A stretch of DNA of 64,000 nucleotides from Novosphingobium sp. CECT 9465 (GTDB taxonomy: Bacteria > Pseudomonadota > Alphaproteobacteria > Sphingomonadales > Sphingomonadaceae). The stretch is taken from the NCBI RefSeq assembly GCF_920987055.1, contig NZ_CAKLBX010000001.1, forward strand, positions 3,024,501 through 3,088,500, in the 5' to 3' direction. A program made the position numbers and the translations under genes. A model generated the notes under the pieces. It did not search any database. It was not told where the DNA came from and saw nothing but the letters and a program-made list of their open reading frames with translations. Every line of letters starts with the position of its first letter. Position 1 is the first letter of the stretch. Shown in pieces: positions 290 to 16,226 of this stretch.

Positions 290-877
290 TTACGCGATGC
301 AACGCATGCTGACGACGCGGGCGGGCGAACCGGCGACAATCGCCATCGCCGGAATGTCCCCCTTTACCACGGCCCCTGCGGCAATAATTGCACCATCGCC
401 GATAGTCGTGCCGGGAAGCACCACGGCCCTGGTTGCCAGCCAGACATCGTTGCCGATCACGATATCAGCTTCGCGCATCGGCTGATCGGTGACGGGCGAG
501 CCGTTGTTGAAATCATATGTGGCGGCGGTGAGCATAACTTCGGGACCGAACAGGACATCATCCCCGATGATGACCCGACCATCGCGGGGACCGGCCCAGA
601 TGTGGCAGCGCGAACCGATCCGCGCCCGATCGCCGATTTCGATGCGTTCGGGATTGGAGAACACCGCATCGGGGCTGATCCCGGCGGCCGCCCCGATCTT
701 CATCCGGCGCAATGGCTGGACGTGGGTGTAGTTGTAATAATTGACGATCTTGAACAGGTGCAGCCACGCCCGCGGATCAAACACTGACAGCACGAGCCGG
801 GCGAGCTTGCCCGCCTTGCCCAGCGCGTTCTTGCGCGGTGGATCGGCAGGTGCAGCGTTCAATATCCCTTCAGCCAT
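290..877 (-). CDS. WcaF-like left-handed beta-helix acetyltransferase
   Basis: The protein has 195 residues. The N-terminal half is a helical cap, with a segment around residues 37-60 typical of colanic-acid-type WcaF acetyltransferases. From about residue 75 onward hexapeptide repeats of the [LIV]-G-x4 kind appear (IEIGDRARIGSRCHIWAG, VIIGDDVLFGPEV, IVIGNDVWLATRAVVLPG, TIGDGAIIAAGAVVKGDI), ending with the usual VAGSPARVV. Such enzymes move acetyl groups from acetyl-CoA to a sugar hydroxyl in the cytoplasm. The ATG lies inside the last codons of the glycosyltransferase upstream (19-base overlap), so the two are translationally coupled. It is the last gene of the minus-strand block wzy-acyltransferase-GT2. 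The substrate is unknown. Confidence 0.85.
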   Translation of the reverse strand: MAEGILNAAPADPPRKNALGKAGKLARLVLSVFDPRAWLHLFKIVNYYNYTHVQPLRRMKIGAAAGISPDAVFSNPERIEIGDRARIGSRCHIWAGPRDGRVIIGDDVLFGPEVMLTAATYDFNNGSPVTDQPMREADIVIGNDVWLATRAVVLPGTTIGDGAIIAAGAVVKGDIPAMAIVAGSPARVVSMRCIA

Positions 878-1815
878 TCATGGCGCTCCTGCCAGATCTT
901 GCGCCAATGGCTCTGCTGTCCGCGCTTGCCCGAAACCAGCGCGAATGCCCCCGATCCAATGCGGCGCGTACAGATCCACAGCCACAGCAAACCGATGCCG
1001 AGCGGCGCGCGGACGCTGCCCCAGTGATCGCGGATCAGGGTTGCCTTCGACCGCATGAGGCGCAGCACCTTGTCTTCGCGCTTCGAACTGGAAGCGCCCA
1101 CAAGGTGCATGATCTGCGCATCGGGCGTGATCATCGGGCGATAGCCGAGGCGCGCGGCGCGCAGGCAGAGATCATGTTCCTCGCCATACATGAAATAGCG
1201 CGGGTTGAAGCCATCCAGCTGTTTCCACAGTTCGGTGCGGATCAGCAGGAAGCAGCCCACCACGACATCGACCTGCCGCACTGTATCCCGTTTCCACCCG
1301 CCGATGCCTTCCGGGTTGAAGAATGTCGTGTTCGAAAAGAGACGCGAAAGACCGGTTGCCGAACAGAACAGGCTCCACACCGACATCGTGTTCCAGCAGG
1401 AGGCGATATTGAGCGAACCGTCGGGAAAGACCGTGCGCCCCCCGACGATTCCGGCCCTGGGGTTGGCCTTTCCGAAACGCAGAATATTTTCGATGGCGCC
1501 GGGATGAGTCTCTGTATCGGGGTTGAGCAGGAGCAGCCACTCGCTTTCAGCCGACGCTGCGATCACGTTGTTGGCTTTGGCAAATCCGACATTGTCATCG
1601 GACCGGATCAGTTCGACCCCCGGAAAGTGGGCAGCGACGGCGTCGGCAGAGCCATCGTGCGACGCATTGTCCCAGACGACCACACGCATGGAGACGTTGC
1701 CGGCATTGGCGAACAGCGTTTCAAGCGCCGTGAGCGTCAACTCTCGCGTGTTGTAGCTCACCATGATCACGGTCACCTCGTGATCCTGAGCGCCGGTTGC
1801 CTCAAACGCTGTCAT
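859..1815 (-). CDS. GT2 glycosyltransferase, WbbL (rhamnosyltransferase)-like
   Basis: The protein has 318 residues. A GT-A fold of family GT2 is shown by VIMVSYNTRE near residue 16, VVVWDNASHDGS at 46-57, the DxD-like NPDTE at 98-102 (after LLLL) and GEEHDLCLR at 211-219, the motif that carries the catalytic base in WbbL-type enzymes. WbbL homologues transfer rhamnose from dTDP-rhamnose, and the complete rml set lies 11 kb away, so rhamnosyl transfer is a sensible inference but unproved. The C-terminal 60 residues contain a hydrophobic stretch (GIGLLWLWICTRRIG) that probably sits on the membrane. It follows the acyltransferase gene by 43 bases and overlaps the acetyltransferase gene downstream. 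Confidence 0.88.
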   Translation of the reverse strand: MTAFEATGAQDHEVTVIMVSYNTRELTLTALETLFANAGNVSMRVVVWDNASHDGSADAVAAHFPGVELIRSDDNVGFAKANNVIAASAESEWLLLLNPDTETHPGAIENILRFGKANPRAGIVGGRTVFPDGSLNIASCWNTMSVWSLFCSATGLSRLFSNTTFFNPEGIGGWKRDTVRQVDVVVGCFLLIRTELWKQLDGFNPRYFMYGEEHDLCLRAARLGYRPMITPDAQIMHLVGASSSKREDKVLRLMRSKATLIRDHWGSVRAPLGIGLLWLWICTRRIGSGAFALVSGKRGQQSHWRKIWQERHEWLKGY

Positions 1816-1858: not shown

Positions 1859-2932
1859 TCACTTACCAGCATCCATTTTGGACAGGAGCTTTCCTCGCCA
1901 GACGCGGATCGGCATCTCGACAAAGTGATACATTGCCGCAGAATAGCCGAAGCTTAATATCGCCGCAATCAATGCGATGGCAATTTCAGAATTCAATGGA
2001 AAATTATAGTTTAATACGCCAATTATAATGTAATGTGACAAGTAAAATGTATAAGAATAAATTCCTATTTTCTTTATAATCCATCCATTCATTAACCGGT
2101 ACGAGATCCCGCTACGAAAGTTTATCAAAAAATAAAATATCGGAAACAAAGCGACTCCTTGGACAGTATAGCGCAAAGTCGATCGAAAAATCTCATCCCG
2201 TATCAAAAACGTCAAAACGATCAACAAAATGCCACCAACCGCTAGCGATCGCCACTGGTTGCGAGAAATTTTCTGCAATAATTCAGATTTTTGATTCATC
2301 AAAATTGCAAGAAGACACCCCCACAGCATTGAATCAAATCGCGTATCTGTAAGAGCATAGATTTCCCATTCGTTTGCGCCAAAAATAGTGAACTTTATGA
2401 AGCGCCACACAAGAACAATTATCGATAATACGATTACCCACAAAATCGGCCATTTTTGCCGAAGGGCGAGCAAAAGTACAAACGGATAAACAAAATAAAA
2501 ATGCTCCTCAACCGACAATGACCAGAATATCTTTGTTCCTGAAATGACATCACCTTGGCTGACATAAGCATCCCAGTAGTTAAAAAAGAAAAAAATCTGG
2601 CTGATCAAACCGATAGTATTTAGAGTACCTTCTGTAAGGTTTGCCAAAACCAATATTACACCAATTGCCATGGTTATCAATAGAGGTGGCGCAAGGCGAA
2701 ACAGGCGCCTGATATAAAATGCCCTGAAATCAACCTTACCAGTTTGCCCGTACTCTTTGACGAGCAAGCTGGTAATAAGATATCCGGAAATAAAGAAGAA
2801 TATCGTCACGCCAAATCCACCCGGAATGGGCAACGAGTGCATGGAATGCGCAACGAAAACTATAATGATTGAAACCGCCCGCAGACCATCAAGCGATGGA
2901 ATATGCCCGGTATTATCGGCACTAGGCTTCAT
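1859..2932 (-). CDS. Membrane acyltransferase, acyltransferase-3 (OafA/YrhL) family
   Basis: The protein has 357 residues and is almost entirely hydrophobic, with about ten predicted membrane helices. The N-terminus SLDGLRAVSIIIVFVAHS (residues 13-30) carries the DGLRA and the histidine typical of acyltransferase-3 proteins; FYIRRLFRLAPP and the SVEEHFY segment are further family marks. These proteins O-acylate surface sugars from the cytoplasmic acyl donor. The start codon abuts the stop of the wzy-like gene directly (TAA then ATG). The gene is strikingly AT-rich for this chromosome, like its upstream neighbour, which points to horizontal acquisition of this pair. The substrate sugar is unknown. 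Confidence 0.88.
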   Translation of the reverse strand: MKPSADNTGHIPSLDGLRAVSIIIVFVAHSMHSLPIPGGFGVTIFFFISGYLITSLLVKEYGQTGKVDFRAFYIRRLFRLAPPLLITMAIGVILVLANLTEGTLNTIGLISQIFFFFNYWDAYVSQGDVISGTKIFWSLSVEEHFYFVYPFVLLLALRQKWPILWVIVLSIIVLVWRFIKFTIFGANEWEIYALTDTRFDSMLWGCLLAILMNQKSELLQKISRNQWRSLAVGGILLIVLTFLIRDEIFRSTLRYTVQGVALFPIFYFLINFRSGISYRLMNGWIIKKIGIYSYTFYLSHYIIIGVLNYNFPLNSEIAIALIAAILSFGYSAAMYHFVEMPIRVWRGKLLSKMDAGK

Positions 2933-4276
2933 TTATCGCATACCTCGGACCACGTCACCAGCATGTCGGCCTAATTGATTTTTCCAAGATGGCAGGCAAA
3001 CTGCCGCACCAATCATAAAGTAGTATAAACTCAACGTCTGCCCAAAAAATGTTACTGTAAAACCTGAAACTAGGAATGCAAAGAGCGCAGCAGCTATCCC
3101 AATATAGAAATACCGCTCAGTTCCACTTTTTTGCGAAGCCGTTTTTGCGATACCAAAAATTGCCCATAGCAGGACATATAAAAATAGCAGGGAAACAATC
3201 ACTCCATGACGCATAGCCAAAAGAAGCCAATTGTTATCCACACTACTCCCCATCCAATTTAACCTTTCCCATTCACTAAGGCCAATACCAATAAGCGGAT
3301 GTTTTTCAACGGATGCACTTCCATATTTCCAAATATATTGACGATAACGTCCTGTCGCCGGATCGAGCGTGTATCGTATAAGTATGGAGACAAGCCCATT
3401 TTGGGACCCAATTTGAATCAATGTGCCTAGAAATACCGCCGATAAAATAATAAGCTTCCATCCGAAAAATTCAAATTTCTTCTGGATCTCGTCCAGCGCC
3501 AGAACTCCAATCCCCAAAATTAAAACAAGGAATGCTCCAGAACTGAGTGAGAAAAAGGCGCAACAACCCGCAGTTATTCCCGCAATTTTCGGCCATCCTC
3601 GTAAGCCAGAAGATATATAAATGGGCACAAAGCTACCGAGAAAAATTCCACCAAGAATAGGGTGAGCGAATGGTCCCGATGCACGCAGAAATCCCAATCG
3701 CGTTTCCTCAATAAACTTAGCAGCCCCAATCGCAACACCATTTTCGTATAACGCTAATCGGCCAAATATGCTGGCGGCAAAGGGCTTTATAATCGGCCTA
3801 CCAGACAGACTTTCGATGGCCATGGTGGCACCAGCAAGCATCAGACCTGGCGCAGCATAAACGAGAAAACGCCTGAAATCAGTTATGTTTCTAATACACA
3901 TCCGCCCGATGATGTACGGGACGAAAATATCAAATGCCAGTGGTGCCGCGCGCATAAAGCCCGTAATGGGATCATAAAAGGCCATGAATGAAATAATCAT
4001 CCAGCTTAATCCTGCGAACATTGCCCCATCAACAGCACGATACCTGAGTCCCCCGCGCGACAATTTACTAAGCAGCCAAGGTAACAACAAAAACGCAGCC
4101 ATACGCGGCGGATAGATGGTTTGCTCTGCCACAACAAAGCGCACCTCCATGGGCATGAACATTGCATAAAAAAGTATCAAGGCTGGAAGCAGAGGCCTGT
4201 AACCTGCAGATGCAGATACCGTCCTTGCCGGACCTTGCGGGCCGAAGCGGCCGGATGATGCGATCGGAACATTCAT
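2933..4276 (-). CDS. O-antigen polymerase/ligase-like membrane protein (Wzy/WaaL superfamily)
   Basis: I place the start at the ATG whose product begins MNVPIASSGRF, giving 447 residues. The frame is open for 90 further codons upstream, but those residues are Cys/Arg-rich, do not look like a protein and overlap the divergent spike gene. The mature protein has ten or more hydrophobic segments, a large hydrophilic loop in the C-terminal half (around RYRQYIWKYGSASVEKHPLIGIG) and GLSEWERLNWMGSSVDNNWLL, an arrangement typical of Wzy_C/O-antigen ligase proteins. It either polymerises repeat units in the periplasm or ligates them. Most of the gene is AT-rich compared with the genome. It heads the block with the acyltransferase and GT2. 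Confidence 0.8.
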   Translation of the reverse strand: MNVPIASSGRFGPQGPARTVSASAGYRPLLPALILFYAMFMPMEVRFVVAEQTIYPPRMAAFLLLPWLLSKLSRGGLRYRAVDGAMFAGLSWMIISFMAFYDPITGFMRAAPLAFDIFVPYIIGRMCIRNITDFRRFLVYAAPGLMLAGATMAIESLSGRPIIKPFAASIFGRLALYENGVAIGAAKFIEETRLGFLRASGPFAHPILGGIFLGSFVPIYISSGLRGWPKIAGITAGCCAFFSLSSGAFLVLILGIGVLALDEIQKKFEFFGWKLIILSAVFLGTLIQIGSQNGLVSILIRYTLDPATGRYRQYIWKYGSASVEKHPLIGIGLSEWERLNWMGSSVDNNWLLLAMRHGVIVSLLFLYVLLWAIFGIAKTASQKSGTERYFYIGIAAALFAFLVSGFTVTFFGQTLSLYYFMIGAAVCLPSWKNQLGRHAGDVVRGMR

Positions 4277-4433
4277 GGCGCTGGACTGTCCTGCTTGAGG
4301 TCTCCGAGTAGCCCTTCGAACTCGGTGGTGGCAAGGACGAATTGCCGCGCTGCAGCAACCAAGATTCCATTTTCCTACACGATAGCGCTCATGATAATCG
4401 ATGTTCTCCATTTGTTCAAAATGAGGCCTCGCC

Positions 4434-4700
4434 ATGATCACCGACAAATTCAGTGCGACAACCGACAGCATCATTGCTCCTGCAACCACCTGCTTTCCGA
4501 TCACGCCAAGCGATGTCGATGATTTGTCCGTGGCGACGAAGGCCATCTATATCGGCGAGACCGGCAATCTTGCCGTGCGCAGCCTTGGTGGCGATCTGGT
4601 GACGTTTGCCAACGTACAGGCAGGTACGATTCTGGATGTGCGTATCCGGCAGGTGCGGCAAACCGGAACTACCGCCGGTTCGCTGGTGGGGCTTTCGTAA
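4434..4700 (+). CDS. Spike base protein, RCAP_rcc01079 (GhsA-like) family
   Basis: This 88-residue protein has the compact pattern of the spike base family first recognised in the Rhodobacter capsulatus gene transfer agent: IAPATTCFPITPSDVDDL near residues 14-31, AIYIGETGNLAVRS at 37-50, then VTFANVQAGTILDVRIRQVR and TGTTAGSLVGL at the end. In RcGTA the two-gene head-spike set (GhsA and GhsB, rcc01079/rcc01080, from memory) decorates the capsid and binds the capsular polysaccharide. The stop codon overlaps the ATG of the next gene (TAATG), so the two are translated together. No other phage or GTA structural gene is in the window. Recognition is by pattern only, without a profile search. Confidence 0.75.
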   Translation: MITDKFSATTDSIIAPATTCFPITPSDVDDLSVATKAIYIGETGNLAVRSLGGDLVTFANVQAGTILDVRIRQVRQTGTTAGSLVGLS

Positions 4701-6745
4701 TGGGTCGCTACGGATTCGGCTTTGGCGCGAGGCACCGCGCCGTGCGCAATGCCGGCGCAAGCGCTCCGCCCGTGTCTGCTTCTCCCGGCCAAGCGTGGAG
4801 CGGCATTGCGGGAAGCGGCTTTGCCACTATCCCTGTCGATCCCGTAAGGACCACGGCAAAGCCCGCAATGCGCCTGATGGTGCCACCCGGCCAGGCATAC
4901 ACGGATCACCTGCTGGTGGGCGCCTATGCCGCTGCAAACAATGGCGGCACGCTGTTCGGCGACATGGGACTTGAGAAGGTTCGCGTGCATTACGAGGGCA
5001 CCATCGTGGACATCACCGCGCCCACGTTCGCGACGTTCGACGATGCCAACGGCAACCCGGTAACCTACTATGGCTGGTGGGCACGCCTTGCGCACGACGG
5101 ACGCAATGGTGACGCCAACCTCTACCTTGAAGCAATCCCCAAAGACGCCACGATGCAGGCCCGCGTGATGGGTCCCTACCTGTTCATGCCATCGGCGACG
5201 CTTTACGATCTGGAATTGACGGTTGCGCCTTCACTGTCGCAAATCACCGGATCGCGATACCAGTCGATCACTGCCGCGCTGACGTATTGCGCGCAGCAAG
5301 CCCGCCATCACCCCAGGATCACGATCACGGAGGCGCGAACCGACTATACGCTTGCCAATATCGGATCGCCTTTTTCGTACAACACCGGCAAGGGGTTTGC
5401 CACGATCGAGGCTGCGGTGCCCGTAACGATCATCGGCACGGCGACGTATGTGGACAGCACTCCGCGAACCAAATATTGCGGCATGCGCTTCAAGGGTTCG
5501 AACATCACGTTCGACTTCGCCAATGCATCGGTGATTTTTGCCGAAGCGACCGGCAACAAGAACTGGCTGGATGGCATTACCGTCATCAACTCTCGCGGCC
5601 GGGGCGGCCTGTTTCCCGGCCTTGGCGGACCTCGCCCCTATGGCACCGGCTGCCACTATGCCACCGAATGCACCATATCCGACCTGCCGACCGCATTGAA
5701 CGGTGCCTTTCTTGCGCGGGGCAACACGGTGACCAAGGGCTTCAGCGACGCGCTGACGGATTGCGTCTGTGCAGTTGGCAACCGACTGGACGATCACGAT
5801 TCCTATGTCGACTGGGCGAAGGAAGTACCAGCCTTTACGGTGACCTACACAGGCACCGGCACGACGGCCACGCTTGAACTTTCGGGTTTCAACGACAATA
5901 CCACGCGTGTGTTCACCGCCAAGGTCAATGGCGCTTCGGTCGGAAGCTTCACGGTCAACAAATACTACAGCGTAGCCAACGGTCGCAATTCGTCGGTCGT
6001 TGCCTGGCTGAACGGCTTGCCCGGATGGGCGGCGACCCTGCAGGATGACACGCGTCGCGTCACGTTCTGTTCGAACGTGGGCGGAAAGGGCACTGCGTTT
6101 GGTCCGATCAACTGCAAGAATACGGAACTGCAGATCGTCACCATGTTCGATCAGCATGGCGATGTGTGGCAGCACCTGATCAACGGCGTGCCCGAAAACG
6201 TGATCGTGGCAGACAATGTCATCACCAACTTTGCCGGGCAGTGCTTCTTCATTGCATCGACCACCCCTGCCAGGGACTTCATCTTCCTGAACAATTGCTA
6301 TCACGGCAAGCCGACCGTGCCCGGAAGCTACAACATCAAGGAAAACTTCTATTCGCAGTTGGACAGATCAGGCGTGAAATCGCATGTCGTCATCGCCCAC
6401 AATTCCTCAACGCAAGGGTGGTGGTTGCGCCCGGCTTCAGGTTTCGATGCCGACGCCTACTGCATGTGGGCGAACAACGCGATGCTGCAATTGAGCTGGC
6501 TGGGAACGCCGGACGCGGACATACGGATCACCAATAATCACATCATGTCATCTGCTCCAAGCCCTGGCCCGGATACAGCCACAGTGATCGGCGGGTCCGA
6601 GGCATCGCTTTGGCAAAATGCATCGGCGGGCGATTTCAGCCCGGCGGGAGAATTGCTGGCGAATCCGAAGGCTCCGGTGCTCAAATTCGATCGGACGGGC
6701 AAAAAGCGCGGCAATGTCGATAGCGTCGGCGCTATCGCCAACTGA
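4700..6745 (+). CDS. Large spike/fibre-like beta-helix protein, partner of the spike base protein
   Basis: The protein has 681 residues. The N-terminus is short and Gly/Arg/Ala-rich (MGRYGFGFGARHRAV), as often seen in proteins following spike-base genes. Roughly residues 90-190 look like a beta-sandwich domain (FATFDDANGNPVTYYGWW). Residues 250-630 have the rhythm of a right-handed parallel beta-helix with Asn ladders (NVIVADNVITNFAGQCFFIA, FLNNCYHG, NNAMLQL, ITNNHIMSS), interrupted by a Thr-rich inserted domain around 380-460. There is no signal peptide. By analogy with GTA/phage head or tail spikes it should bind, and perhaps cleave, a polysaccharide. Its place within the polysaccharide locus supports this. 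No catalytic triad could be assigned. Confidence 0.7.
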   Translation: MGRYGFGFGARHRAVRNAGASAPPVSASPGQAWSGIAGSGFATIPVDPVRTTAKPAMRLMVPPGQAYTDHLLVGAYAAANNGGTLFGDMGLEKVRVHYEGTIVDITAPTFATFDDANGNPVTYYGWWARLAHDGRNGDANLYLEAIPKDATMQARVMGPYLFMPSATLYDLELTVAPSLSQITGSRYQSITAALTYCAQQARHHPRITITEARTDYTLANIGSPFSYNTGKGFATIEAAVPVTIIGTATYVDSTPRTKYCGMRFKGSNITFDFANASVIFAEATGNKNWLDGITVINSRGRGGLFPGLGGPRPYGTGCHYATECTISDLPTALNGAFLARGNTVTKGFSDALTDCVCAVGNRLDDHDSYVDWAKEVPAFTVTYTGTGTTATLELSGFNDNTTRVFTAKVNGASVGSFTVNKYYSVANGRNSSVVAWLNGLPGWAATLQDDTRRVTFCSNVGGKGTAFGPINCKNTELQIVTMFDQHGDVWQHLINGVPENVIVADNVITNFAGQCFFIASTTPARDFIFLNNCYHGKPTVPGSYNIKENFYSQLDRSGVKSHVVIAHNSSTQGWWLRPASGFDADAYCMWANNAMLQLSWLGTPDADIRITNNHIMSSAPSPGPDTATVIGGSEASLWQNASAGDFSPAGELLANPKAPVLKFDRTGKKRGNVDSVGAIAN

Positions 6746-6829: not shown

Positions 6830-8104
6830 TCACGAGGGTTCCAGGCCGAGTTCCGCGCGCATTTCCGCAACAAGCTCGGCGAGGAAAGGGTACTGATCCT
6901 GGCGGACGTAATCGTCGTTGGAACAGGCCGTCACCGGCGCACCGTATTCGTTGCAGGCGCGCGCAAGCGCTTGGGCCAGTTCGATGTCTGCAATCGAGCG
7001 AATCGAGCGAATGTTGGGATGGAACGATGAAAGGTCCTTCCCGAAGTAACCGTTGGTTATGGTCCTGAGACCCATGTGCGCCATTTCGAGAGGCGGGTAG
7101 CTTGGGTGTGGCGAGGCCATCAAGCTCAAACCGACGGAACTCGACAGGAGCATGGCGGCATAATCGTCGAGCGACAGCTTCCCAACGGAATTGACGGTTC
7201 TGCCGACGCCAAGATCGATCGGCTTGTGCGCGGTTCCTGCTGAAACCAGTTCCCAGTCGGAAAACTCAGGATAATCACGCACCCAGCGCCGAAGCCCGCG
7301 CACGATAGCGGGGAAGCAATTGCGCGCAATTCCCGGACGACCGTAGATGAGGATGCGTTTCTGCCGCTCACTCTTCGCCACGCCATCAAGATAAGGGCGC
7401 AGCTTGTCGCTGATCACCGGTTCGAACACAAAGGCACGCTCTGCCCGGTGCCCCAGTTTTTCGAAGTACCAATGCAGATTCGAGCTGTTGAAAACGCCCC
7501 ACAGACGTTCGGTCAGATCATACGCCTCACGGGTCAGCATGTGCGCCGATGAGAACGGATAGAGGTGCGGCTCGTACTCCTGGATGAGAAAAATCATCGG
7601 TCGCACCGGTTGGCGATAGTGTTCTGCCTGCTGCCTGATCAGACGCTGAAGATTCAAGGTCATCCATGTGCTGTAACTGATGAACAGATCATGTGTCCGG
7701 ACCGGAATAGCCTGATCCATGGCGCTGACCTGCAACAGTGAAAACCGACCCGCAGGCAAGCCATGGCGCTTCGCACGCTCGGTCAATATTCCGAAATCAG
7801 TTTCACGATCCGGCTCAGCCAGAATGACCCGGAGATCGATATCGGTAGTCCCGCACAGACTTGCGGCAAGTTCGAGGAAGATGTCGATGCCGGTCACCAC
7901 GCCTCCAAAGGCCGTCGATGCAGTGAGGTTCGGAATGACAAAATTGAGCCTCGGCCTTGCAGACCGATCTTCGACCAATCGATAGACAGCCAGCACGATA
8001 TCGTCGATCGGCGGTGGCAAGGTGCGCTCCCGGACGTCCTTGACGAACTTCTTCAACCGAACCGGCATTAGCCGTTTCATCGACGCCCGGACCGCCCCAC
8101 TCAT
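6830..8104 (-). CDS. WsaF-like glycosyltransferase
   Basis: The protein has 424 residues. The central LNFVIPNLTASTAFGGVVTG (about 53-72), the IFLIQEYEPHLYPFSSAH segment (about 172-189) and the C-terminal donor half with ILIYGRPGIARNCF and SYPPLEMAHMGLRTITN resemble WsaF, a GT-B rhamnosyltransferase of S-layer glycan synthesis. The acidic residues after SYPPLE fit the nucleotide-sugar site of GT4-like enzymes. With dTDP-rhamnose made by the rml genes nearby, beta-rhamnosyl transfer is a reasonable inference. The gene follows wzx by 49 bases on the same strand and faces the spike gene. An ATG eight codons downstream of the chosen start is an alternative. Confidence 0.78.
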   Translation of the reverse strand: MSGAVRASMKRLMPVRLKKFVKDVRERTLPPPIDDIVLAVYRLVEDRSARPRLNFVIPNLTASTAFGGVVTGIDIFLELAASLCGTTDIDLRVILAEPDRETDFGILTERAKRHGLPAGRFSLLQVSAMDQAIPVRTHDLFISYSTWMTLNLQRLIRQQAEHYRQPVRPMIFLIQEYEPHLYPFSSAHMLTREAYDLTERLWGVFNSSNLHWYFEKLGHRAERAFVFEPVISDKLRPYLDGVAKSERQKRILIYGRPGIARNCFPAIVRGLRRWVRDYPEFSDWELVSAGTAHKPIDLGVGRTVNSVGKLSLDDYAAMLLSSSVGLSLMASPHPSYPPLEMAHMGLRTITNGYFGKDLSSFHPNIRSIRSIADIELAQALARACNEYGAPVTACSNDDYVRQDQYPFLAELVAEMRAELGLEPS

Positions 8105-8153: not shown

Positions 8154-9626
8154 TCACAACGATCTCGCGCGGAGCACCGGGATGCTGCGGATTATAGGCA
8201 GGGCCTGAAGCTGAGACCGCACGGCAAGTGGCATCTGCACGAGCGCGAAGACCGCTGCGACCGACGCAATTGAAACACCCGTTGCCAATGAAGAGACCCA
8301 CGTCTGAAACGCCTGCCCTGCGAAAATCGAAGAGAGAACCAGAAGGCCCGGCACGCCAAGGCGTATCAGAAGGTCTTTGCTCCAGATCCTGGCAGACAGC
8401 ATCAGCAAAAGGCAATCGACAGCGCAGCGCAGCGAAAACGCAGCCGCAATGCCGATCAGCCCGAACTTCATGTGCAGCAGATAAAGCGCCGCTGTATAAA
8501 GCGGCAGTTCGATCACATGGAGAAGCGCCGTGTATCTGGGGTTTCCGCGTGCCTGGATATAGGCGTAAGGGACGCTGGCGATTGCGTTCGTCCAGAAACC
8601 TGCCAGTACGATCTGGCCAATGATGATCGACTGCCGATCAAGCGCGTTTCCGATCCACACATCGAGAAGCGGCGCGGCAAGACAGGCAAGACCAATCACC
8701 ATCGGGGCGTAGATCTGCCCGATTAGCACGGTCGAATCCCTGCACCGGTCAAGCGAACGCTCTACCGAATCCGCCGCGAATCGGGGGAACAGGACCTGCG
8801 AAATCGCCAACGGAAACATCACCGTGCGGCTGGCGATCTGGAAGGGTACCGCATAGATCGCAACGGCTGCAGTGCCAATCGTCGCGCCGATCACGAAGCG
8901 ATCTGCCATCGTCATCATCGGGCCGACGATCATGGTCAGCATGATCCAGATGCCGAAAGTAAACAGGTGGCGAAACTCGCTCCATGTGGCTGAAAACGGC
9001 TCGTCACGCAAGAAAGTGATCCACGCCCCAGCACCTACGATGACAAGTCCGATGATCCGGCCCGCCAGTGCGGCGGCGATGAGGTCCGTCAGGTTGCCGC
9101 CGATGAAAAAGGCAACGCCCAGCGGCAGGACCTGCATTGCGATCGAACTGGTGAGATTCCCAAAGGAAACCAGCTTGAACCGTTCCAGACCCATCAGCGC
9201 CCCTGCGAATGTGCTGGAAATGGCGATGACCGGAATGCACAATGCAAGATACCAGCGTGACGCCATCATCTCTGCCCGCAGGCCAGCCTCCACCTTGAGA
9301 GGGCCTGCAAAGAAGTAACTGGACGCGGCATAGACAAGGGCCCCGCTGACCAGACTGAACAGGATCACGCCACAGACAGCGGACCATACGGCAGCAACGC
9401 GTTCCTTGCGCGCATCCTGTCCGAGTGCTGAAATCCTTTGGGTGATGGCGCGGGCAATCCCGAAATCGGCCTGCCCGAAATACCCCAGGAGCAGCCATCC
9501 GATCATCAGTGCACCGTAGCGCTCGCTACCGATGAGCTTAAGGTAAATCGGCACGGTTACGATGCTGACAAATGCCGGCACTGCTGCACTGATGATGCTG
9601 TAGACGGCATTCATGGCCAACCGCAT
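8154..9626 (-). CDS. Wzx-type polysaccharide flippase
   Basis: The start is fixed by an AGGAG six bases before the ATG of MRLAMNAVYSII, giving 490 residues; the open frame runs 48 codons further upstream but that part is Cys-rich and not protein-like. The protein has about 12-14 hydrophobic segments and begins with AVPAFVSIVTVPIYLKLIG, typical of the polysaccharide biosynthesis (Wzx/MOP) superfamily that flips undecaprenyl-linked repeat units to the periplasm. SLDRCRDSTVLIGQIYAPM and ALLHVIELPLYTAALY are further family-like segments. It is the only flippase in the window and probably serves the polysaccharide made here, with one of the two Wzy-like proteins as partner. Confidence 0.88.
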   Translation of the reverse strand: MRLAMNAVYSIISAAVPAFVSIVTVPIYLKLIGSERYGALMIGWLLLGYFGQADFGIARAITQRISALGQDARKERVAAVWSAVCGVILFSLVSGALVYAASSYFFAGPLKVEAGLRAEMMASRWYLALCIPVIAISSTFAGALMGLERFKLVSFGNLTSSIAMQVLPLGVAFFIGGNLTDLIAAALAGRIIGLVIVGAGAWITFLRDEPFSATWSEFRHLFTFGIWIMLTMIVGPMMTMADRFVIGATIGTAAVAIYAVPFQIASRTVMFPLAISQVLFPRFAADSVERSLDRCRDSTVLIGQIYAPMVIGLACLAAPLLDVWIGNALDRQSIIIGQIVLAGFWTNAIASVPYAYIQARGNPRYTALLHVIELPLYTAALYLLHMKFGLIGIAAAFSLRCAVDCLLLMLSARIWSKDLLIRLGVPGLLVLSSIFAGQAFQTWVSSLATGVSIASVAAVFALVQMPLAVRSQLQALPIIRSIPVLRARSL

Positions 9627-9849
9627 GGAGTCTCCTGTAAATCCCGACGCAGCACCGCAACTGTCAAAGCACCTGCAGCAAGAGCATCCGAGGTTTCCAC
9701 CCATTCTCGTAACGCATTGCCGGTCCGCAGCATTTGACAGCCAAAGCCACGGCTCAATCGCAGCTTTCACGTGAAATCCCTATGGGTTTTTCCAATACCT
9801 TGTGCTAGCCCTATTTTGCAATGCAGCATGCGGGGCAGTCTCAGAAATC

Positions 9850-12873: not shown

Positions 12874-13932
12874 TCAGCTTTTTTTGAGCAGCGGCACCCA
12901 CCAGTCTTCATTATCGAGATACCAGCGCAGGGTGCTACGCAGGCCGGTTTCGAAATCATGCTGCGGCACATAACCCAGTTCCGTGCGGGCTTTCGTCTCG
13001 TCAATGGCATAGCGGCGATCATGCCCCTTGCGATCTTCGACAAACGTCTTCAATTCAGACGTCGGGCGCCCTTTGGCTGCCGGAGCATCGGGGTAGCGTG
13101 CGGCAAGACCCGGAATTTCTACAAACGCAAGATCGACTTCGGCACAGATGCGATCAATGACTGCCATGTTGCGGAGTTCTTCACCTCCGCCGATGTTGTA
13201 AGTCTCGCCCGCCTTGCCATTCATCAGCGTCGCTTCGATGCCACGACAATGGTCTTCGACGTAAAGCCAGTCGCGCACATTCATCCCATCGCCGTAGATC
13301 GGCAGAGACTTGCCCGATAGCGCGTTCAGGATGAACAGCGGAATCAGCTTTTCCGGGTAATGATAAGGCCCGTAGTTGTTGGAGCAGTTGGTGGTGGTTA
13401 CCTGCAGCCCGTAGGTATGGTGATAGGCACGGACGAGGTGATCCGACGCCGCCTTGGACGCCGAATAGGGCGAATTCGGCTGGTACTGCGTCGTCTCCGA
13501 AAATGCCGCATCATCCGGTCCAAGCGAGCCATAGACTTCGTCGGTCGAGATATGATGGAAACGATGTTCGCGCCCGCCGTTGGCGCCCAGCCAAACCGAC
13601 CGGGCCGCCTTGAGCAAGCTGTTCGTGCCCAGGATGTTGGTATCGATGAATGCGTCAGGGCCACTGATCGAACGATCGACGTGGCTTTCAGCAGCAAAAT
13701 GCACGATGGTGGCGATGTCGCGCTCGCGCAGCAGCTTTTCGACCAGATCGGTGTCGCGAATGTCGCCAACAACCAGTTCGGCCTGCTCGACATCGGCAAT
13801 TGTCGATTCATTGCCTGCATATGTCAGGCAATCCAGCACGATCACGCTGTCGTCCGGGTGGGATTTGCCCCAGTAGTGAACGAAGTTGCCGCCGATGAAA
13901 CCGGCGCCGCCGGTGACAAGCAGGTTAGCCAA
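12874..13932 (-). CDS. rmlB: dTDP-glucose 4,6-dehydratase
   Basis: RmlB converts dTDP-D-glucose to dTDP-4-keto-6-deoxyglucose, the second step to dTDP-L-rhamnose. The Rossmann motif LLVTGGAGFIGGNFV is at the N-terminus, followed by FAAESHVDRSI and HISTDEVYGSLG with the TDE triad residues; YSASKAASDHLV holds the Tyr-x3-Lys couple, and NNYGPYHYPEKLIPLFI is a family signature. I start it at a TTG (13932) preceded by AGGAAAAGG, which gives 352 residues, the usual length; the ATG 20 codons upstream lies well inside rmlD. The TTG overlaps the end of rmlD by 8 bases, so translation is coupled. Last gene of the rmlACDB operon. Confidence 0.95.
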   Translation of the reverse strand: MANLLVTGGAGFIGGNFVHYWGKSHPDDSVIVLDCLTYAGNESTIADVEQAELVVGDIRDTDLVEKLLRERDIATIVHFAAESHVDRSISGPDAFIDTNILGTNSLLKAARSVWLGANGGREHRFHHISTDEVYGSLGPDDAAFSETTQYQPNSPYSASKAASDHLVRAYHHTYGLQVTTTNCSNNYGPYHYPEKLIPLFILNALSGKSLPIYGDGMNVRDWLYVEDHCRGIEATLMNGKAGETYNIGGGEELRNMAVIDRICAEVDLAFVEIPGLAARYPDAPAAKGRPTSELKTFVEDRKGHDRRYAIDETKARTELGYVPQHDFETGLRSTLRWYLDNEDWWVPLLKKS

Positions 13933-14782
13933 GTGCCTTTTCCTCTTCGAGCATGAGCCGCAGGTTCGTGCGCCAATGAATGTTTTCGTCACCCAGCGCC
14001 GCGCGTGTTTCGGTCACGTCCAGGACGGAAAATGACGGTCGTCTGGCCGGAACGGGATATTCGGATGTTGAAATCGGGACTATCCGTGGCAACCGGGCGA
14101 GCAGCCCCGCCGCCAATGCTTCCTCGCCGATCGCCACGGCAAAATCGTACCAGCTGGCAACGCCGGCATCGCGGTGATGCCAGATCCCCGGCCTGTCCGC
14201 CAAGGCAAGCCCCCATAGTGTGCGCGCAAGCCCGGTGGCCCAGGTCGGCGAACCGATCTGGTCTCCTACGACCCGCAGTTCATCGCGCTCACGCATCAAG
14301 CGCAGCATGGTCCGCACAAAATTTGCGCCACCCGCAGCATAGACCCAGCTGGTCCGCACGATTATGGAATCTTCACCCGCAGCAATCTCGCCATCGGCCT
14401 TGCTGGCACCATAGATGGATTGTGGGTTGCGCGTATCGCCAGGCTTGTAGCCGGTCCCACTGGTGCCGTCGAAAACGAAGTCGGTCGATACAGTGACCAG
14501 CCGCCCGCCGGTTTTGGCCAGCGCCTCGGCAAAAGCACCCGGTGCACGTGCATTGATGGCATAGGCCAGGTCTTGCTCGCTCTCCGCCCGGTCAACCGCA
14601 GTGTAGGCGGCGGAATTAAGCACGAGATCGGGCTTCTCGGCATCGACGATCCGCGCAATCGCATCGGCATCGCTCAGGTCCAGAGCGGCGCGGTCCAGCG
14701 CCACGCAAGTCCAGCCTTCCGGGCAAGTGCGCAACAGTGCACTGCCGACCTGCCCGTTAACCCCGGTGACTAATGCCTTCAT
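13925..14782 (-). CDS. rmlD: dTDP-4-dehydrorhamnose reductase
   Basis: RmlD reduces dTDP-4-keto-L-rhamnose to dTDP-L-rhamnose with NAD(P)H. The start in MKALVTGVNGQVG gives 285 residues and overlaps the rmlC stop as ATGA. The nucleotide-binding TGVNGQVG is at 6-13, NSAAYTAVDRAE at 56-67, STDFVFDG at 99-106 and YGASK at 124-128 supplies the Tyr and Lys of the short-chain reductase site. The segment QIGSPTWATGLA is a further RmlD mark. It is third in the operon rmlA-rmlC-rmlD-rmlB, the complete set for one sugar donor. Confidence 0.95.
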   Translation of the reverse strand: MKALVTGVNGQVGSALLRTCPEGWTCVALDRAALDLSDADAIARIVDAEKPDLVLNSAAYTAVDRAESEQDLAYAINARAPGAFAEALAKTGGRLVTVSTDFVFDGTSGTGYKPGDTRNPQSIYGASKADGEIAAGEDSIIVRTSWVYAAGGANFVRTMLRLMRERDELRVVGDQIGSPTWATGLARTLWGLALADRPGIWHHRDAGVASWYDFAVAIGEEALAAGLLARLPRIVPISTSEYPVPARRPSFSVLDVTETRAALGDENIHWRTNLRLMLEEEKALG

Positions 14783-15324
14783 GCGAAAGCCTGAACCTTG
14801 TCCAGCGAAAGACCTGCGGCATCCTTTGCGGAGATCTGCGGCTGAATGTCGCCAAGCGGCCATTCAATACCCACTGCAGGATCGTCCCACGCAAGGCTCG
14901 CTTCATTCTGCGGCGCATAGGGCGCAGTGCATTTGTACAGGAAATCCGTGTCGTCTTCCAGAGTCAGGAAGCCGTGAGCGAAGCCTTCGGGCACCCAGAA
15001 CATCCGCTTGTTTTCAGCAGACAGGGTCACCCCGGTCCATTTTCCGAACGTCGGCGAGGAACGGCGCAAATCCACAGCCACGTCGTAAACGGCACCTCGC
15101 ACCACCCGCACCAGTTTCCCTTGCGGCTCAGGATTCTGAAAATGCATTCCGCGCAGAACGCCCTTTTTCGAGCGGCTGTGGTTATCCTGCACAAATTGCA
15201 GATTCAACCCGGCTTGCGCGAAGGCTGCGTTATTCCACGTTTCAAGAAAGAACCCCCGCTCATCGCCGAAAACCTTGGGCTCAATGATGAGAGGGCCGGG
15301 AATGTTGCATTCAATGATGTTCAT
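14779..15324 (-). CDS. rmlC: dTDP-4-dehydrorhamnose 3,5-epimerase
   Basis: RmlC epimerises dTDP-4-keto-6-deoxyglucose at C3 and C5. The 181 residues match the usual length. The cupin core shows DERGFFLETW at 21-30, FVQDNHSRSKKGVLRGMHFQ at 44-63 with the catalytic His61, VVRGAVYDVAVDLR at 74-87, PEGFAHGFL at 112-120 and the active-site Tyr130 in DFLYKCT. It lies 5 bases after rmlA and overlaps rmlD by four bases (ATGA). Confidence 0.96.
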   Translation of the reverse strand: MNIIECNIPGPLIIEPKVFGDERGFFLETWNNAAFAQAGLNLQFVQDNHSRSKKGVLRGMHFQNPEPQGKLVRVVRGAVYDVAVDLRRSSPTFGKWTGVTLSAENKRMFWVPEGFAHGFLTLEDDTDFLYKCTAPYAPQNEASLAWDDPAVGIEWPLGDIQPQISAKDAAGLSLDKVQAFA

Positions 15325-15329
15325 CGAAT

Positions 15330-16226
15330 TTATCCCTGAACAATCAGATTCAAAAGATATTCACCGTAGCCCGATTTGCGCAAAGGCTGGGCGATCGCCT
15401 CAAGCTTGGCGTCATCAATGAAGCCCTGCCGCCAGGCGATTTCTTCAGGACAGCAGATTTTCAGGCCCTGCCGCTCTTCGGTGATGCGGACATAGGCCGC
15501 AGCATCGAGCAACGATCCGTGCGTTCCGGTATCCAGCCAAGCGAAGCCTCTGCCCATGATTTCGACCGACAACTGGCCTTCTTCCATGTACAGCCGGTTC
15601 AGGTCAGTGATCTCAAGTTCGCCGCGCGGCGAAGGCTTGAGATCACGAGCGCGATCAACCACCGTTTCATCATAGAAGTACAGGCCCGTAACCGCGTAGT
15701 TGGATTTGGGCTGCGTCGGCTTTTCCTCGATCGACATCGCGCGACCGCTCTCGTCGAATGCCACCACACCATAAGCCTGAGGATTGTTGACCCGATAGGC
15801 AAAGACACTGGCTCCGGTGCTGTTTGCGTTAGCATTGCACAGCAGTTCGGGAAGGCCATGGCCGTAGAAAATGTTATCGCCCAAGACCAGTGCGCTTGGG
15901 TTTCCGCCCACGAAATCCGCACCGATATGAAATGCCTGAGCAAGGCCATCCGGTGTCGGCTGCACAGCGTAAGTCAGCGAAATGCCGAAATCCGACCCAT
16001 CGCCAAGTACACGCTGAAACTGCGCAGCATCATCAGGCGTGGTAATGATCAGGATATCCTGAATTCCGGCGAGCATGAGCGTGCTCAAAGGATAATAGAT
16101 CATGGGCTTGTCGAAGACCGGCATGAGCTGCTTCGATACACCACGCGTCAGCGGATAAAGGCGTGTGCCAGAGCCGCCTGCAAGAATAATCCCTTTCCGT
16201 GGCGAACGGGCTGTGGTGATATTCAC
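15330..16226 (-). CDS. rmlA: Glucose-1-phosphate thymidylyltransferase
   Basis: RmlA makes dTDP-glucose from dTTP and glucose-1-phosphate, the entry to dTDP-rhamnose. The protein has 298 residues and starts at [19 protein letters not shown] (12-27) is the nucleotide-binding loop, [20 protein letters not shown] (31-50) follows, and DNIFYGHGL and the WLDTGTH motif near residue 223 are diagnostic for RmlA rather than other sugar nucleotidyltransferases. It is the first gene of the rml operon. Its promoter must lie in the long gene-free region upstream, which also contains a 20-base palindrome. Confidence 0.96.

Follow-up and report, generated by a model that had tools for sequence, protein, structure and literature searches.

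At positions 4434..6745 of a 64,000-nucleotide stretch of the Novosphingobium sp. CECT 9465 genome (the window; contig NZ_CAKLBX010000001.1, positions 3,024,501 to 3,088,500), two coupled genes encode proteins of 88 and 681 residues, which we identify as the base and the fibre of a head spike of the type carried by gene transfer agents (GTAs), a well supported assignment. The pair had been described in an earlier note on this DNA, and both its coordinates and its TAATG overlap proved exact, the A of TAATG being shared by the two open reading frames (ORFs). The module and the elements ahead of it are listed below, the limits of the fibre domains having been read from the predicted structure.

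4371..4379, plus strand: TTTCCTACA promoter box, the TKTCCTAC(A) box common to spike upstream regions
4403..4417, plus strand: GTTC-N7-GTTC, candidate LexA-type operator (consensus GTTCN7GTTC)
4434..4700, plus strand: spike base gene, 88 residues, NF048002 / Rcc01079 family
4700..6745, plus strand: spike fibre gene, 681 residues, beta-helix fibre
4709..4729, plus strand: YGFGFGA repeat (fibre codons 4-10), an alternation of hydrophobic residues and glycine, proposed docking peptide for a base pentamer
Fibre residues 1-17: disordered docking N-terminus
Fibre residues about 25-168: beta-rich N-terminal domain
Fibre residues about 169-668: right-handed beta-helix
Fibre residues about 376-450: domain inserted in the beta-helix

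The smaller protein had been taken for a spike base, and it matches NCBIfam NF048002 with 105.8 bits against a curated cut-off of 28 (E 1e-30), phrog_12296 with E 4e-21 and, by sequence, chain 6tb9 of the Rhodobacter capsulatus agent (RcGTA) with E 4e-8. The same chain is the top Foldseek match of its predicted structure (mean predicted local distance difference test score, pLDDT, 87.9), with E 3.1e-7, template modelling (TM) scores of 0.81/0.85 and a root-mean-square deviation of 2.7 over 85 columns. The larger protein had been called a beta-helix, and its model is a confident right-handed parallel beta-helix (pLDDT 94.5); queried by sequence with the fibre or a fibre profile, the PDB yielded no clear relative and no match named Rcc01080. 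Its N-terminus reads MGRYGFGFGA. In RcGTA, fibre residues 2-10 (IALGLGLGL) occupy the five pockets of the base pentamer (PMC7296036). Of 116 fibres, 54 have a docking-like run, defined as at least three hydrophobic residues alternating with small ones within the first 18 residues, where shuffled sequences gave 7.1 and inner windows 4.4, so that a docking repeat appears to be common but not universal across spike fibres. Coupling of the two genes is general as well, with the base stop and the fibre start overlapping by 1 base in 89 of 138 spike loci and by 4 bases in 14, while a fibre gene was not found in nine. The fibres themselves are diverse, 129 of them falling into 33 single-linkage classes, 19 with a single member.

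The note had made its interpretation conditional on a GTA or phage-like head cluster elsewhere in the genome, and an RcGTA-type head-tail cluster does lie on contig C1 at about 2815072-2828273, some 200 kb away from the spike pair, with Pfam matches to terminase, portal, HK97 capsid, tail tube, DUF2460/NCTSP, BR0599 and Rcc01698_C. The RcGTA gene labels, including hub, g9 and g13, are those that we presume to apply. Across the order Sphingomonadales, the base family occurs in 51 of 296 genomes (50 above cut-off) and the GTA hub family PF23666 in 182; the hub is present in 40 of the 51 spike genomes versus 142 of the 245 others (p 0.007, not corrected for phylogeny). Homologues of the window's fibre were identified in 16 of the 296 genomes and the base always adjoins them (15 whole, one fragmented). 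Since the base recurs in 51 genomes and the fibre adjoins it in all 16, the pairing is not due to chance. No GTA hub was detected in the genome that carries the fragmented fibre (G252:C12:51693-52720, L196), which fits decay once the GTA had been lost. Under the title 'Actinobacteria bacterium 21-64-8', the record CAJCHR010000090.1 (L145) appears identical with contig G026:C90, both of 8019 bases; as G026 is placed in the window's genus, that title is probably wrong.

A direct link to the GTA head comes from ten sphingomonad loci in which the base gene stands immediately after the GTA capsid gene, three among 80 named loci and seven among the 21 spike regions L166-L186, six of these seven having been picked for a nearby hub. 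Wherever the capsid-adjoining loci are long enough to show it, the tail-tube gene follows. This position ties the spike family to the GTA head; here the spike gene belongs to the GTA cluster proper.

In the window, by contrast with these clusters, the spike lies within a polysaccharide locus, and the neighbours that the note had described, a wzy/acyltransferase/GT2 block on one side and a wzx/WsaF block on the other, were recovered by Pfam:

290..877, minus strand: hexapeptide acetyltransferase (PF00132)
859..1815, minus strand: glycosyltransferase family 2, GT2 (PF00535)
1859..2932, minus strand: acyltransferase 3, Acyl_transf_3 (PF01757)
2933..4276, minus strand: Wzy-type polymerase, Wzy_C (PF04932, 40.2 bits), divergent from the spike
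6830..8104, minus strand: WsaF-type glycosyltransferase (WsaF_N and WsaF_C)
8154..9770, minus strand: Wzx-type flippase, Polysacc_synt (PF01943, 67.2 bits)
12874..16226, minus strand: RmlB-, RmlD- and RmlA-like genes (Pfam), conserved flank of the variable locus

From a comparison of in-frame starts, the Wzy start was re-called to ATG 4276, its probable start; the default ORF, from ATG 4546, would run into the spike gene. With this start, Wzy and spike are separated by a divergent intergenic region of 157 bp that contains both promoter elements. Annotation pipelines may mis-call the Wzy or the spike gene between 4276 and 4546. The right flank continues after the spike with WsaF, Wzx, WbsX and GDSL genes and then the Rml-like genes. 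In those spike loci of relatives that yielded close homologues, these genes show 55-91% identity, matches of 24-29% being to other epimerases. The note had denied other phage or GTA genes nearby, and among the 11 neighbouring ORFs scanned none matched a phage family above the Pfam cut-off, the sole phage-family match being a sub-threshold holin hit on the acyltransferase (14.3 bits, cut-off 26).

This placement recurs. The 51 genomes hold 55 spike places, 48 of them ectopic once the seven in GTA clusters are set aside, and proximity was scored as the distance to a Wzx (PF01943) or Wzy_C (PF04932) gene, with the expectation drawn from coverage. At least 29 of all 55 places lie within 15 kb of such a gene (2.57 expected), as do at least 29 of the 48 ectopic ones (2.31 expected), and at least 36 of the 48 lie within 30 kb (about 4.6 expected); the binomial test behind these comparisons counts genomes as independent, though they are related. 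The non-random placement of ectopic spikes beside polysaccharide genes is thus well supported, and homologues are not confined to prophage tail clusters, the ectopic ones in bacterial genomes of the order being mostly near polysaccharide genes.

Spike and glycan genes had also been expected to vary together, which was borne out by the co-turnover of fibre and Wzy. The comparison of fibre, Wzy and RpoB was made within the window's own fibre class (class 0), where a Wzy homologue was found in 35 of 49 loci; 30 were used (L075, L076, L080, L083 and L119 omitted) and L098 was dropped for its short RpoB, leaving 29 genomes, with the RpoB of L095 partial. For Wzy we took whichever gene within about 10 kb best matched the polymerase of the window, and strongly divergent polymerases may therefore be mis-assigned (e.g. 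L069). In the 36 close pairs (RpoB identity 0.93 or higher), fibre and Wzy were both alike in 6, both different in 30 and discordant in none; among all 406 pairs both were alike in 6, the fibre alone in none, Wzy alone in 1 and neither in 399. The permutation p was 5e-5, or 3e-4 with labels moved within RpoB groups; the thresholds for 'alike' were picked after seeing the values, three settings giving the same permutation p, and the pairs are not independent. Fibre and Wzy were also rank-correlated (r 0.227, p 0.011, n=35). RpoB showed no relation to the fibre (r 0.03, p 0.34) and hardly any to Wzy (r 0.13, p 0.05). Partial Mantel tests controlling for the neighbouring dehydratase gene (9 genomes for Wzy) were not significant (r 0.29, p 0.14). 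On these data, the exchange of fibre and glycan genes together is moderately supported.

A further line of evidence lies in the promoter. Exact TTTCCTAC was found within 250 bp upstream in 87 of 138 spike loci, in 81 of these 51-75 bp before the called start codon, and TKTCCTAC within 130 bp upstream in 95 of 131. In the de-duplicated tree set this box precedes 96 of 113 ectopic spikes versus none of 10 GTA-cluster spikes, and it was absent from 77 viral base loci (of 80, three being dropped for short upstream sequence) and from 41 viral GTA-type holin loci; 30 of the 80 viral base loci carry homologues of GTA proteins and some may be pieces of GTAs, not phages. GTTCN7GTTC, the LexA consensus given for Caulobacter in PMC12700426, occurs in 46 of 131 spike upstream regions, against 0.42 in shuffles preserving base composition alone, and in 0 of the 77 viral loci. 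In some spike promoters (G163, G185) an AACC-N5-GGTT dyad, similar to the one in the holin promoters described below, replaces the LexA-type box.

Other genes share these elements. A composite promoter pattern matched at 25 sites, spread over 11 of 15 genomes, and its reversed form nowhere; the matches precede 8 spikes, 5 DUF6456 genes, 8 lytic transglycosylases, 2 ParB-like genes and 2 unclear ones, assigned by position or by reading the downstream ORF, with a Pfam scan of one protein each from the DUF6456 and transglycosylase groups. In the window's own genome just the spike and a DUF6456 gene match, the latter divergent from an XRE regulator. Homologues of GafA, the direct activator of the R. 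capsulatus GTA, are annotated DUF6456, and in that species CtrA-P together with GafA triggers the late genes, among them those for spike, tail fibre and lysis (PMC9638019). The DUF6456 gene G000:C1:1595040 (L255) and like genes in G011, G028, G015 and G146 stand behind a TTTCCTACA plus LexA-type promoter and possibly serve GTA control. Furthermore, TTTCCTACA lies ahead of GTA_holin_3TM genes in the own genome (PF11351, E 1.5e-32) and in G242 (by likeness), and ahead of a phage-type lysozyme gene in G242. These GTA-type 3TM holin genes (G000:C1:1582355, L286; G242:C23:3834, L275) carry TTTTCCTACA followed by GAACCGATATGGTTATCTGA, and the same box and dyad precede a 255-residue protein at G000:C1:1330133 (L284) with a weak PHROG match, possibly a GTA accessory gene. 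The transglycosylase and ParB-like genes with box and LexA-type operator (L247, L248, L252, L253, L259, L260, L264, L265, L267, L268) suggest mobile elements under the same control; several of the boxed transglycosylase genes are divergent from a zinc-finger-like protein, as judged by eye. In G242 and the own genome many TTTCCTACA sites fall within genes, and 3 of 30 GTA head-tail regions contain between them four exact TTTCCTAC matches, whose positions put them within or close to the clusters. A text search of the literature with the box sequence returned unrelated titles among the matches listed. We read TKTCCTAC as a probable late-GTA accessory element, though mobile-looking genes carry it too.

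The base tree (89 columns, 165 rows, bootstrap unsettled, every second viral locus included) joins Rcc01079 to its counterpart from phage RcapNL (100/99). This pair lies outside a sphingomonad branch (98/91) in which all of the 96 boxed bases are found, together with all 10 from GTA clusters, 15 that lack the box and 12 viral rows. As Rcc01079 falls outside this branch, the placement of a spike beside capsule genes may have arisen separately in R. capsulatus and in sphingomonads, a suggestion only, given the short alignment.

From the protein family, the folds, the GTA cluster, the link to the GTA head, the polysaccharide neighbourhood, the co-turnover and the shared promoter elements, all obtained by computation, we propose, with a probability of roughly 0.77, that the pair belongs to the cell's own RcGTA-type GTA as an ectopic accessory module, with a spike matched to the neighbouring receptor-glycan locus. 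Incorporated in particles, the 88-residue base would form pentamers on the GTA capsid and the hydrophobic/glycine repeat at the fibre N-terminus would dock into them, and the beta-helix would bind, and possibly also cut, the surface polysaccharide made by the wzy/wzx locus. The pair would be switched on with the other late GTA genes from its own promoter, the TTTCCTACA box and the LexA-type operator presumably answering to GTA and SOS factors. Because the spike divergently adjoins the polymerase gene, fibre and glycan type would be exchanged together, and particles would keep recognising cells with the same coat, a match that selection may maintain. The earlier idea of a lineage-specific receptor module needs one qualification, the module being spread over several genera and not narrowly lineage-specific.

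Several observations weigh against this proposal. At E 1e-3 the hub family was not found in 11 of the 51 spike genomes, and among 61 near relatives the spike is present in just 9 and the hub in 40. Some base homologues lie in GTA clusters, phages or unrelated loci; 12 of the 48 ectopic spikes have no Wzx or Wzy gene within 30 kb among the matches listed, the G206 spike adjoins dapB and a transposase, and one G131 spike place adjoins a phage-tail gene. Within the 12, the G162 spike is surrounded by Wzy-, GT2- and rml-like genes by tblastn, that of G011 has Wzz and GT4 neighbours, that of G259 a sugar transferase neighbour, and that of G307 a weak terminase homologue close by. The class-median docking run reaches three in just 12 of 30 fibre classes, and by rank fibre and Wzy are just weakly correlated (partial Mantel r 0.214, p 0.019). 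As to the promoter, the box was not found ahead of GTA clusters in 30 head-tail regions, it also precedes transglycosylase, ParB-like and DUF6437 genes, and TTTCCTACA sites are modestly above a reversed control in the own genome (20 vs 11) and not above it in G242 (10 vs 11).

A bolder form of the proposal, towards which we are tentative and lean slightly to the negative, sees a sphingomonad self-recognition cassette, in which fibre and receptor polymerase, as divergent neighbours, are inherited and swapped as a unit behind a late-GTA promoter with SOS control, with an origin separate from that of Rhodobacter. A rival to the main proposal, rather unlikely in our estimation, accepts a true GTA spike and explains the co-turnover with Wzy as hitch-hiking in a recombination hot spot, with no selection for matching. 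Adjacency or physical linkage alone could indeed produce the pattern: Wzy is the adjacent gene, GT2 co-varies too, and each alike pair could stem from one recombination tract. Hitch-hiking fits less well with a placement that is non-random across genera and that R. capsulatus shares with a base of seemingly separate descent, and no close pair was seen in which the fibre had changed apart from Wzy, but this counts just 6 or 7 alike pairs.

The ectopic GTA module also has to be set against a host enzyme that modifies or depolymerises polysaccharide, with no role in GTA particles and a base gene that is a leftover. The location of the fibre gene within a polysaccharide locus would suit such an enzyme, as would the fold matches to lyases, epimerases and an alpha-1,3-glucanase, with WceF of Pantoea, a glycan-modifying enzyme that resembles tailspikes, also among those listed, and the invariance of R340, D350, H486, D488 and D526 among 91 aligned fibre sequences. 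A leftover is hard to reconcile with an intact base gene tightly coupled to the fibre (in 103 of 138 loci the two overlap by 1 or 4 bases), an N-terminal docking repeat with no signal peptide by eye, the same base family behind the capsid gene of GTA clusters, and a promoter box common to GTA lysis-type genes, which makes this account improbable. Equally improbable is a phage-derived spike module kept as cargo or decaying, without GTA function, for which speak the base relatives with a coupled downstream gene in phages, the many base relatives in viral contigs (at least 442), the viral rows inside the sphingomonad branch, the spike genomes in which no hub was found and the fragmented G252 fibre, but against which stand the presence of the base in 51 of 296 genomes, the lack of the promoter box at 77 viral base loci, the absence of phage genes from the 11 scanned neighbours, and a branch that also holds all ten GTA-cluster spikes, albeit over few columns.

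How GTA production can be selected although the producer dies is a standing question, and one proposal, set out in PMC10883770, is kin-restricted delivery through specific polysaccharide receptors. That idea becomes testable with a spike gene that, in a second bacterial order, is tied physically and evolutionarily to a polymerase gene for the receptor it presumably binds. If the spike is so matched, a single exchange would alter both the coat and the specificity of the particles, directing gene transfer to kin in a greenbeard-like manner. Besides that, the promoter box offers a handle for locating the scattered GTA accessory genes of sphingomonads.

Spikes encoded beside capsule genes are already known from R. 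capsulatus, the precedent invoked by the note, where the spike fibre binds the capsule (PMC10218006). Among the matches listed, our searches of the open literature found no report of sphingomonad GTA spikes or of spike-receptor co-location, and as far as these searches show, the lineage, the seemingly separate origin, the fibre/Wzy co-turnover and the shared promoter box are apparently new. With GhsA/GhsB of RcGTA (Rcc01079/Rcc01080) the module shares a homologous base, the combination of base and fibre, and the glycine/hydrophobic docking N-terminus (PMC10218006 and PMC7296036), as well as genes that lie away from the GTA cluster and beside capsule genes (PMC10218006). It differs in its fibre, of 681 residues and beta-helical here against 325 residues in RcGTA, in its wzy/wzx/rml neighbours, and in a promoter with TTTCCTACA and a LexA-type box. 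Among phages, the head of Carin1 (8cjz) has the same base fold (Foldseek E 2e-4), and RcapNL and P8625 carry a base gene with a coupled downstream gene, but set among phage genes. The fibre recalls TspA (Rcc02623) of RcGTA, which likewise combines an N-terminal beta-sandwich and a right-handed beta-helix with an inserted domain and resembles an alpha-1,3-glucanase; the likeness, to the extent that the preprint PMC13420450 describes it, is one of architecture only, and TspA is attached to the RcGTA baseplate, unlike the head spike.

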